The position numbers were made by a program, and so were the translations under genes. Shown piece by piece: positions 23,450 through 26,143 of a stretch of 64,000 nucleotides of DNA. The DNA comes from Phycisphaerae bacterium (lineage in GTDB: Bacteria > Planctomycetota > Phycisphaerae > SM23-33): NCBI GenBank assembly GCA_011050235.1, contig DRGC01000049.1, forward strand, positions 62,001-126,000. The letters run 5' to 3'. Numbering within the stretch: the first letter of the stretch is position 1; the number at the start of each line of letters is the position of its first letter. The notes under the pieces were generated by a model. The model was not told the DNA's origin. It was given only the letters and a program-made list of their open reading frames with translations, and did not search any database.

Positions 23450-24406
23450 TCACTGGCCGCGGCGCGAGCGAGGGCGCGCCAGCCGGGCCAGTTCGCTGCA
23501 CCGCATCCAGCGGATCTCGTCGCCGAGGTGGGCGGCCATTCGCTCCAGAAGCAGTTCCAACCCCCACAACCCAGCCAATCGGCCGTTGGAGAACAGGGAC
23601 TGCCAGTGAGTGAGGATCGTGACGGGAAATCCCACATCGACGAGCTCTCGAATCCTCCCGCTCCGGCCGTCGCGCGACAGCAGTTCATCCGCCCCGGCCC
23701 GAGCCGCGGCGCGGGCCGCCCGGAGGGTGACGGCATATTGTGTGGGCCAGAACACATCCCCCGTGTTGGCCGGCACGGTGACGGTCTCCAGCCCCCGCCC
23801 GGCGTCCTTCCACGCCACCCAAGGCCAGGCCGGGCGAGATTCGTCCATGCAATGCAGGAAATACCACGACCGTTTCCGCCGATGCACCCGCCAGAACGCC
23901 CGGGCGATGCCCTGAGCGTAGGCCTTCTCGTTGTCAGCCCCCGTGGACCATGGCGATGTCACGCCAGTCGATCGCAGGCCGACGCTGTCGAGAATTGTCA
24001 GCGCCAGCGCGATGGTCTCGGCGATCTGGTCGGCAGTGGCGCGGGAGACCCAGGCGTCCTCATACATGTGCTCGAAATAACCGCCTTTCACATTGAAGGC
24101 CACCAGATGCGTCAGCAACTCGCAGGTGATATCAAACCGCGGCGCAATCCGCCGGCGAGCGATGTCGAGGAACGTGCGGAGATGCGCCGGCGAAATGCCC
24201 GTCAGTTGTCGGTCGATCCGACCAAGGGCGGCCGGCATCGGCGGGATGGAAAACTTGCCGCTCACCCCATGTCGCTCACACAACGAAGCAAAATCCCGCA
24301 GCATCACGTTGGGCACGACCCGGACGTGCTGCTCCCACGTGCAGTGCCACACCATCAGATTGACAGGCGCCCCATCGTCAACAAGCAGCGATGCCGGCAC
24401 GGCCAT
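23450..24406 (-). CDS. Polysaccharide-deacetylase-like protein of unknown function
   Basis: 318 residues, no signal peptide. The start (MAVPASLLVDDGAPVNLMVWH) and the later GKFSIPPMPAALGRI, FDITCEL-THLVAFN, and the end region PVTILTHWQSLFSNG suggest a 7-stranded barrel of the polysaccharide deacetylase/GH57-like superfamily. The Asp pair near the N-terminus and the HWQS strand fit a metal site. I cannot assign a substrate. Start 24406 has GGGAGA 5 nt upstream. It converges on the TrkA gene and has no obvious partner. Confidence 0.55.
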   Translation of the reverse strand: MAVPASLLVDDGAPVNLMVWHCTWEQHVRVVPNVMLRDFASLCERHGVSGKFSIPPMPAALGRIDRQLTGISPAHLRTFLDIARRRIAPRFDITCELLTHLVAFNVKGGYFEHMYEDAWVSRATADQIAETIALALTILDSVGLRSTGVTSPWSTGADNEKAYAQGIARAFWRVHRRKRSWYFLHCMDESRPAWPWVAWKDAGRGLETVTVPANTGDVFWPTQYAVTLRAARAAARAGADELLSRDGRSGRIRELVDVGFPVTILTHWQSLFSNGRLAGLWGLELLLERMAAHLGDEIRWMRCSELARLARPRSRRGQ

Positions 24407-24530
24407 GCTCGTCTCCCAGCCAGACCAAACGCGCCTCACCAAAGTCAGAACACACAACGAGGGAGTATACCCAACACCTCAACCCCTGCCGAGACTTCCC
24501 CACACCCCAATGTCCGCAATCGCGACCCCG

Positions 24531-25025
24531 CTACGCCTCTGCGGATTCGTTGTCAGCCTGGTCGCCGAACTCGCTGGGGTCTTTGCCTGCTTCGATCCAA
24601 GTGAGCTTGGAGACGCGCCGTTCGTGGCGCCCGCCGCTTTCGAACTCTATCTCCAGCCAACTGCTGACGATGCGGCGCATGAGTTCCTCGCCCAGCACGT
24701 CGCTGGCCAGGCACAGGATGTTGGCGTTGTTGTGACGTCGCGACATCTCCGCCGTCAGTTCGTCGTGGCACAGGGCGGCCCGAATTCCGGAGATCTTGTT
24801 GGCCGAGATGCTCATCCCGATGCCGTTGCCATCGATCAGAATCGCCCGCTCGGCCCGCGCAGCGGCCACCGCGATCGAAACCGAATACGCAACATCCGTA
24901 TAGTCGCAGCTTCGGCTGCTGTTGGTGCCCATGTCGATGACCTCATGCCCCAATTCGCTCAGAAGCACGCCGACGCGTTCTTTGGCTGCGTGTCCACGAT
25001 GGTCTGCCCCAATTGCTATTTTCAT
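24531..25025 (-). CDS. rpiB: RpiB/LacAB-family sugar-phosphate isomerase with Asp65
   Basis: 164 residues. GADHRG near the N-terminus (Asp8, His9) and SRRHNNANILCL (His98) match RpiB, which interconverts ribose 5-phosphate and ribulose 5-phosphate. The catalytic Cys of the LICGTGIG loop is replaced: here it is LIDGNGIGMSISANK (Asp65). Other RpiB subgroups use different bases (for example Glu in Mycobacterium), so activity is possible but the substrate is less certain. A tail of about 20 acidic residues follows. Its start overlaps the preceding gene by ATGA (4 bp). Confidence 0.82.
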   Translation of the reverse strand: MKIAIGADHRGHAAKERVGVLLSELGHEVIDMGTNSSRSCDYTDVAYSVSIAVAAARAERAILIDGNGIGMSISANKISGIRAALCHDELTAEMSRRHNNANILCLASDVLGEELMRRIVSSWLEIEFESGGRHERRVSKLTWIEAGKDPSEFGDQADNESAEA

Positions 25026-26143
25026 AAGATGTGTTTTCCCAAAACGTTACGAAGCGCTTGGCGGATTTTCGTTGCGGTCTTTCTATACACTGCCGCTCCG
25101 CCGCCGACAGGGTCAGGAATGTCGGCGGCCTCATCCAATCGGCGGATCTTCGTCCCGGCCGACCGAGCGACGCGGCGAACTGCTTCCACGTGTGTCTGCG
25201 TCATGCACAATACCATATCTGCAGATTTTATCAACTCTGCGCCCATTTTTTGACTCCGGTGCCCAGACAGGTCCGCGCCGAACTTTCCGGCCGCCTGCCG
25301 GGCCTCCGCCGTCGCCGGACTGCCGCCCGCAGCAAACACGCCGGCCGATGAGACCTCGTAGCCCTTGCCCGCCAGTTGTCCGACGGAGCATCCCAAACGA
25401 TCGGCCAGCATCGCCCGGGCCAGCCCCGCCGCCATCGGGCTGCGACAGGTGTTGCCCGTGCACACGAACACGATCCGCACGCGCATCGCATCGGCCAGCG
25501 CCTGCCGGCCCACGGCGCCCTCGCGCACAACCTGCCAGTCTGTGCCGGTCAGCCGCACAATGCTGCTGTCGGTCCCAAAACGGGTCGATCCGGCGTCGAT
25601 CAGCAGATCGATCTTCCCATCCAGCGCCGCTGCGACCTGCTCGCCCGTGTGCGGCGAGGGGGCGCCCCTCACGTTCGCGCTGGGGGCCACGACCGGCTCG
25701 TCCACGGCCGAGAGCATCGCCGCAGCCACCGGCTCGTCCGGACAGCGCAGGCCAATCACTCTCCTGGCGCACAACACCTTGCGGAGTTGGCGGGTGTTGA
25801 TGGCTTTGTCGGCCAGCCGCCCTTTCGTCGCGGCCAGGACGGTCACAGGCCCCGGCCAGGTCCGTTCGATCAGACGCCGCCCCGCCCCGGGCAAATGCGC
25901 GATGTACCGCGCCACCTCCTCGGGTGAGCCGAGATGCACCGTAAAGGGATGGCGTGGCCGCGACTTGATCTTCCGCAGACGCCGCATCGCCTCCGGCCGC
26001 GACGCAACCGCCGCAATGCCGTAGACCGTCTCGGTAGGAAAACCCACCAGCTTCCCCTCCCGCAGCGCTGCCGCGCCGGCCGCAGCAGCGGCCGCAACGT
26101 CCGAGGCCCGCCTTACTCGAATGATCTCTGTCGATACCGTCAT
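25022..26143 (-). CDS. TsaC/Sua5 domain fused to low-molecular-weight phosphatase
   Basis: 373 residues, two domains. Residues 1-215 are a Sua5/YrdC/YwlC domain (KLVGFPTETVYGIAA, SRPRHPFTVH, TWPGPVTVLA, VVAPSANVRGAPSP) that makes threonylcarbamoyl-AMP for tRNA t6A. Residues about 222-373 are a low-molecular-weight phosphatase with loop CTGNTCRSP (Cys228, Thr232, Arg234) and DIPDPVGG (Asp344). Thr in that loop is the YwlE arginine-phosphatase signature, where tyrosine phosphatases have Ile. B. subtilis has ywlC, ywlE and ywlF (rpiB) as neighbours; here the first two are fused. Start 26143 is supported by TATAAT 9 nt upstream. Confidence 0.88.
   Translation of the reverse strand: MTVSTEIIRVRRASDVAAAAAAGAAALREGKLVGFPTETVYGIAAVASRPEAMRRLRKIKSRPRHPFTVHLGSPEEVARYIAHLPGAGRRLIERTWPGPVTVLAATKGRLADKAINTRQLRKVLCARRVIGLRCPDEPVAAAMLSAVDEPVVAPSANVRGAPSPHTGEQVAAALDGKIDLLIDAGSTRFGTDSSIVRLTGTDWQVVREGAVGRQALADAMRVRIVFVCTGNTCRSPMAAGLARAMLADRLGCSVGQLAGKGYEVSSAGVFAAGGSPATAEARQAAGKFGADLSGHRSQKMGAELIKSADMVLCMTQTHVEAVRRVARSAGTKIRRLDEAADIPDPVGGGAAVYRKTATKIRQALRNVLGKHIL

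Follow-up and report, generated by a model that had tools for sequence, protein, structure and literature searches.

The phosphatase YwlE (PtpB) is a stand-alone protein in Bacillus and Staphylococcus. According to the excerpts of the PMC papers on which we draw here and below, position 5 of the P-loop is Thr in arginine phosphatases and Ile in tyrosine phosphatases, a Thr-to-Ile change shifting the activity (PMC8001253, citing earlier work), and TsaD of B. subtilis is marked by phosphate on arginine and degraded by ClpCP where YwlE does not counteract this (PMC7546277). Arginine marking is treated as a Gram-positive system in the excerpted PMC8370763, and for the wider superphylum the sole case met in the literature examined, itself seen as an excerpt, is the ClpC of Chlamydia, which degrades casein that a bacterial McsB has phosphorylated on arginine (PMC10128030). 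For TsaC/Sua5 enzymes, a tetrad of residues is ATP-binding and T33/S181/R195 are threonine-binding, all of them being needed in yeast Sua5 (excerpt of PMC10321239). TsaC-like domains inside multidomain proteins are found in HypF and TobZ, the partner there being a Kae1-like domain and the chemistry carbamoylation (excerpts of PMC10321239 and PMC9654439).

Here we describe a gene in which a TsaC/Sua5 domain is joined to a YwlE-type phosphatase domain. It lies in the window, i.e., the whole stretch of 64,000 nucleotides analyzed, from a Phycisphaerae bacterium (contig C49). We think it probable that its product is an arginine phosphatase opposing McsA/McsB, joined to TsaC in one two-enzyme protein whose activities are separable. 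Each enzyme is already known, and a YwlE-like chain named Ribose 5-phosphate isomerase RpiB has already been solved (PDB 4egs). A TsaC-YwlE fusion and planctomycete arginine phosphorylation are absent from open-licence PMC titles and abstracts, among the matches listed; pseudo-TsaC forms and the spread of the fusion with McsB in a Gram-negative phylum were not found in the same open-licence literature, nor was any biochemistry on these planctomycete proteins found in the literature examined.

A TsaC/Sua5 domain and a YwlE-type domain in one frame

25022..26143, minus strand: fused TsaC/Sua5 - YwlE-type phosphatase gene, 373 aa, P0001 (frame, Pfam, NCBIfam-type models)
25517..26068 (C49:87517-88068), minus strand: TsaC/Sua5 (L-threonylcarbamoyladenylate synthase) catalytic domain, residues 26-209 (PF01300, E 1e-47; TIGR00057)
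25958..25966, minus strand: K60-x-R62, first half of the ATP-binding tetrad (sequence; role from an excerpt of PMC10321239)
25673..25681, minus strand: S155-x-N157, second half of the tetrad (sequence; role from the same excerpt)
25043..25474 (C49:87043-87474), minus strand: LMW protein phosphatase domain, YwlE type, residues 224-367 (PF01451, E 2.4e-25; YwlE chains at about 1e-17)
25436..25462, minus strand: P-loop C228-TGNTCRSP, with Thr232 at position 5 (sequence; Thr/Ile rule from an excerpt of PMC8001253)
25100..25114, minus strand: DPVGG general-acid loop, residues 344-348 (sequence and solved-chain comparison)
25022..25025, minus strand: ATGA overlap of fusion stop and rpiB start (sequence)
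24531..25025, minus strand: rpiB, ribose-5-phosphate isomerase B, 164 aa, P0002 (PF02502, E 2e-52; TIGR01120)

The fusion gene runs from an ATG at 26143 to a TGA stop at 25022 (a GTG start 7 codons upstream of the ATG is likewise open), and rpiB lies directly behind it, its ATG sharing four nucleotides with that stop. An earlier note on this DNA had described a two-domain frame followed by rpiB; the domains, the motifs and the 4-nt overlap are as claimed, and what had to be amended is the strand, all genes being on the minus strand and the plus strand of 24531-26143 carrying three stops in frame 1. The rpiB product is over the curated cut-off of TIGR01120 (LacAB_rpiB domain; 155.9 bits vs 138.65). 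Just downstream of rpiB, on the same strand, a 335-aa frame (23450-24457, minus) has no Pfam match at E 0.01.

The N-terminal half exceeds the cut-off of TIGR00057 (148.9 bits vs 123.2) and has the complete KxR/SxN tetrad (K60, R62, S155, N157). The threonine-site residues are present as T37, S193 and R207, placed by alignment to 6f89, which we take to be Pa-Sua5, where they are numbered T33, S181 and R195. In both sets of residues the protein resembles TsaC/Sua5 (YwlC), from which it differs in being of TsaC length, with a phosphatase domain in place of Sua5_C; Pfam gave PF01300 and PF01451 only for the window protein, and Sua5_C (PF03481) was not found. The residue before SxN is Pro154, as is typical of Sua5, whereas short-form TsaC has Thr or Ser; among 113 fusions with an intact tetrad this residue is mixed (P51, T36, S22, A4), and some bacterial TsaC exceptions carry Pro there (excerpt of PMC10321239). 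PF01300 matches two proteins of the window genome, the fusion and HypF. The N-terminal domain most likely makes threonylcarbamoyl-AMP for tRNA t6A.

The C-terminal half has the CX5R P-loop (C228 to R234). Its nearest solved chains are 4egs (E 6.8e-22) and then YwlE (1.3e-17), the more distant ones being the best chain without a YwlE or RpiB name (5.8e-12), Wzb (2e-11) and the PtpA-named 2luo (2.1e-7). These neighbors, together with Thr at loop position 5, bear out the earlier assignment to the YwlE type; the Thr linked to phosphoarginine (pArg) is indeed there, as T232, and its site is the P-loop CTGNTCRSP, not the DPVGG loop in which it had been placed. Compared with YwlE/PtpB of Bacillus and Staphylococcus, the LMW phosphatase domain has the identical CTGNTCRSPM loop, the DP general acid and an McsB in its genome; it differs in standing behind a fused TsaC/Sua5 domain, and its pArg activity is a prediction. 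The 4egs chain is tied by its name to RpiB, the window domain to TsaC. Such a tie to RpiB is an alternative seen within Planctomycetota as well, in G332, where a YwlE-type phosphatase and RpiB form one 317-aa frame with no TsaC recognized (L242:1003-1953, minus). PF01451 has two matches in the window genome: one is the fusion, the other an ArsC-like gene that reads CTGNSCRSQ and scores 128 bits on the arsenate-reductase model, below the cut-off of 174.3. A structure model of the fusion (two-row alignment; mean pLDDT 44, pTM 0.41) was uninformative on domain packing.

Across 170 fusions of the phylum, position 5 of the P-loop is T142, S13, L5, I5, M3, A1 and R1, and in the 23 loci with a YwlE-type phosphatase and no recognized TsaC (YwlE-only) it is T22 and V1. 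As a control we used 22 other LMW-phosphatase-family proteins of the class genomes (20 fetched, L064 and the window genome's L003), among which Thr occurs in none, Ser in 21 and Ile in one, with 20 of the 21 Ser proteins reading CTGNSCRSQ, as in ArsC-like proteins. Asn replaces the second Cys of the phosphatase loop in L253 (G234, CIGNVNRS), in whose frame the TsaC half is unrecognized, and in L254 (G080, CLGNLNRS), where it is weak.

A Wzb-like tyrosine phosphatase without any role in arginine marking would accommodate the 28 of 170 fusions that have no Thr at position 5, five of which have Ile, and LMW phosphatases are often promiscuous. However, the domain is closer to YwlE chains than to Wzb or to any other chain lacking the YwlE or RpiB name, most fusions do have Thr, and loop and McsB decay jointly in one genus (below), so we regard this alternative as quite unlikely and predict pArg specificity for the window protein.

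The arginine kinase set of the window genome

The window genome has a full-length mcsB with a McsA-like gene directly upstream. Its McsB can be aligned over almost its whole length with protein-arginine kinases of solved structure and carries the guanido-kinase catalytic motifs SSRVRLARN, NEEDH, CPTN and GEG, with RAEARA where RDxxRA, presumably the allosteric motif of McsB, would stand. It passes one NCBIfam protein-arginine-kinase cut-off (407.7 vs 385 bits), and fails four others (363.5 bits on the Bacillus-type model, cut-off 500); the upstream gene matches McsA best among the NCBIfam models (E 1e-34), though below the cut-off (119.9 bits vs 210). ClpC is encoded in an 859-aa open frame whose N-domain is close to solved ClpC N-domains and has both GTEH motifs, the glutamates of which presumably bind pArg. 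The earlier note had held that its idea would fall if the genome had no arginine kinase homologue; with McsB found beside an McsA-like gene, and ClpC in the same genome, that objection does not apply.

An mcsA-like gene adjacent to mcsB and a ClpC encoded in the genome recall the Bacillus ctsR-mcsA-mcsB-clpC operon, from which the present arrangement departs in having clpC on another contig, with no Clp_N match on the mcsAB contig. The control genomes for these searches were imperfect, as PF00217 matched none of the 14 and Clp_N missed B. subtilis too, though B. subtilis, which has McsB, was among them. Within this set, the C-terminal domain of the fusion would most likely remove phosphate from protein arginines, against the predicted McsA/McsB kinase of its genome, and the dephosphorylation would spare proteins from ClpC-dependent degradation. 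On contig C93 of the same genome, a 281-aa protein (L260:1456-2301, plus) begins with a ClpC N-domain; behind it comes a weak T2SSE-like stretch that falls just short of the Pfam cut-off, and Pfam matches nothing else. It may serve as a reader of ClpC clients or as an adaptor for them.

Spread of the fusion in Planctomycetota

Among the genome of the window and 59 relatives, the fusion protein has matches in 57 of 60 and McsB in 55 of 60. Of the 53 class loci that were parsed, 52 have rpiB directly behind the two-domain frame and on its strand (the remaining one is at a contig edge), so the arrangement is not a matter of chance. Among 392 genomes sampled across the phylum, 384 match the fusion model through one or other of its halves and 373 match McsB, degenerate copies included; class and phylum samples both contain the window genome itself. 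The earlier note had proposed looking for the same two-domain protein in related genomes, and among 210 chosen loci a single frame carries both domains in 170, while 23 have the phosphatase without a recognized TsaC and 17 have no phosphatase in the locus. The fusion is thus ordinary for Planctomycetota.

The 210 loci come from 208 genomes (G426 and G234 twice) and are not a random sample: 54 are class loci (duplicates reduced to one each: L002 and L004; L036 and L067; L020; L025 left out), 26 top phylum matches of the fusion model, 30 loci from a search with the phosphatase half, and 100 were picked by hand, 80 of them among the 150-odd fusion-model rows listed and 20 from the phosphatase-half search. 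Two fusions whose N-terminus is cut by a contig end (L058 and L200, loops Thr and Ser) were dropped from the status counts, which leaves 168 fusions and, with the YwlE-only loci, 191 scored rows (113 intact, 38 decayed, 17 partial, 23 YwlE-only). The YwlE-only rows include G005, where TsaC and phosphatase occupy separate, overlapping frames (a frameshift may be the cause), and G234, where any match to TsaC has gone from the first 214 residues of a 375-aa frame. A nearby rpiB on the same strand is found in 139 of the 191 rows (81/113 intact, 31/38 decayed, 16/23 YwlE-only and 11/17 partial).

The fusion seems old in Planctomycetota, and we infer that neighbors in an ancient sua5-ywlE-rpiB cluster were probably joined. 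From these data, a kinase, activator, phosphatase and ClpC set may be predicted across the phylum, McsA and ClpC having been checked in the window genome only.

Loss of the TsaC tetrad beside a kept phosphatase loop

We scored a TsaC half as decayed when two or more tetrad residues, or the S or the N, were lost. The tetrad is lost by this measure in 38 of the 168 scorable fusions, 37 of which keep the Thr loop; Thr is also found in 22/23 YwlE-only, 92/113 intact and 12/17 partial rows. A second PF01300 protein other than HypF is present in 36 of 37 decayed genomes searched (G359 was left out) and in 2 of 65 intact ones, the exception among the decayed being G328, whose other PF01300 match is HypF. 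Second Sua5 copies were told from HypF first by frame length and then, in part, by a domain check: all 17 copies fetched (14 decayed genomes, the intact G018 and G407, and the partial G263) carry PF03481 Sua5_C and are therefore long-form Sua5, those of the other 22 decayed genomes are called from frame length and score, and the other PF01300 frames checked (G019, G053, G328, G000) are HypF. The association of decay with a second Sua5 has a Fisher value of 5e-24 with kinship ignored; with kinship corrected, there are 3 independent pairs on starred branches, which agree in direction but are too few to carry the association (mean 2.6 agreeing, 0 opposing, 0.4 equal; median p 0.25). The tree was made from the phosphatase domain alone, so its 17 intact/decayed changes are rough.

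The frames of the 38 decayed rows are long (355 aa or more), and their TsaC halves keep T37 in 33, Y41 in 35, P97 in 37, G98 in 38 and R133 in 34 cases, S193 in 27 and R207 in 23; of the tetrad, whose loss defines the group, K remains in 6, R in 8, S in 10 and N in 4. Judged from these residues, TsaC catalysis is dispensable in the fusion while the fold is often kept. Decayed fusions occur together with YwlE-only rows in each of the families f5, f17 and f43, and in f17 there are intact fusions as well, which makes a path from intact through decayed to lost TsaC likely, the direction being assumed. Lineages with a second Sua5 appear to lose TsaC catalysis and retain the phosphatase loop, and a repeated conversion of an essential enzyme domain into a non-catalytic partner is predicted. 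Counting the 17 partial rows (single-residue tetrad variants) as decayed was considered and rejected: the fusion is the sole PF01300 match in G070, G074, G118, G154 and G303, so that it probably works there.

Joint loss of kinase and phosphatase motifs

Only two of the 191 rows have lost the P-loop Arg, namely the fusions L193 and L194 of G365 and G385, single-contig genomes of one genus. Their loop reads CEANTLSSP and the general-acid Asp is Glu, and in their McsB (L294, L295) SSRxRxARN, CPTN and GEG are gone and NGEDH stands for NEEDH, while the TsaC tetrad is intact; in G054, of the same family, the motifs of both enzymes are intact. No other genus combines a scored fusion with a dead McsB, and in this one the phosphatase loop is dead but TsaC intact. 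Although it is a single event, confined to one genus, such co-decay is what a kinase-phosphatase pair predicts, and it supports such a pair, as a natural joint loss that would tie the phosphatase to McsB.

A strict rule by which Thr occurs only with a live McsB was tried and abandoned, Ile standing beside live McsB motifs in G060, G131 and G186 and also in f73 (G224, G261), where McsB is weak-scoring but motif-complete. Degenerate McsB motifs were also seen in L303 (G072) and L304 (G075), where the fusion model is weak (1.5e-9 and 4e-31). Six genomes of f61, f89 and f106 (G143, G192, G271, G329, G354, G399) encode McsB along with a TsaC some 215 aa long, and the phosphatase half has no match in these genomes. 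Conversely, McsB has no match in the genomes of nine scored rows, whose loops are all of the Thr or Ser kind; six of these genomes are less than 80% complete and three (G010, G317, G445) 90-93%.

What the physical link may mean

The earlier note had suggested that t6A synthesis is functionally coupled to the removal of phosphoarginine or phosphotyrosine. In an obligate form of such a coupling, with pArg removal, the two activities would be mutually dependent, e.g., by channelling or allostery, for which the phylum-wide fusion and the TsaD of B. subtilis, a client of McsB, YwlE and ClpCP (excerpt of PMC7546277), could be adduced. This form is weakened by the 38 tetrad-less fusions, 37 with the Thr loop, and by the 23 loci with no TsaC recognized in the frame of the phosphatase, those of f17, f19, f20 and others having a separate Sua5; G365 and G385, moreover, retain the TsaC tetrad beside a dead phosphatase loop. 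As the halves decay separately (among scored rows, both are dead in none), catalysis in one appears independent of the other, and we hold obligate coupling to be very unlikely. A softer link is possible given the same TsaD observation, which offers a possible reason for gene adjacency and then fusion by analogy with B. subtilis: the physical link would perhaps guard the t6A machinery from arginine marking.

The link itself may also be neutral, a lost stop codon having joined the neighbors, which then stayed together by inertia, with the fold of a dead half kept since its deletion would destabilize the other half. Such a history is compatible with the arginine phosphatase we prefer, as it concerns the value of the link only, and we give it a little short of an even chance. 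The independent decay of the halves, the TsaC-less YwlE in several families and the existence of a YwlE-RpiB frame joining the next pair (G332; 4egs) all agree with it, but the frame length and the retention of T37, Y41, P97, G98 and R133 (33-38 of 38) in decayed rows are more than a tail without use would lead one to expect, a surplus for which fold stability may account.

Beyond neutrality, the fused TsaC fold might be a regulatory or targeting module of the arginine phosphatase, and a pseudoenzyme where a second Sua5 covers t6A, an idea that we consider unlikely. A decayed TsaC, with the ATP tetrad lost but the threonine-site residues T37, S193 and R207 more often retained, would then perhaps sense threonine or dock on the t6A machinery, letting TsaD escape McsB marking; were this the case, translation fidelity would be linked directly to arginine-marked proteolysis. 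In three genomes (L340 of G018, L342 of G254 and L344 of G263), a HAD-type hydrolase domain precedes the second Sua5 within a single open frame, possibly another phosphatase-Sua5 fusion.
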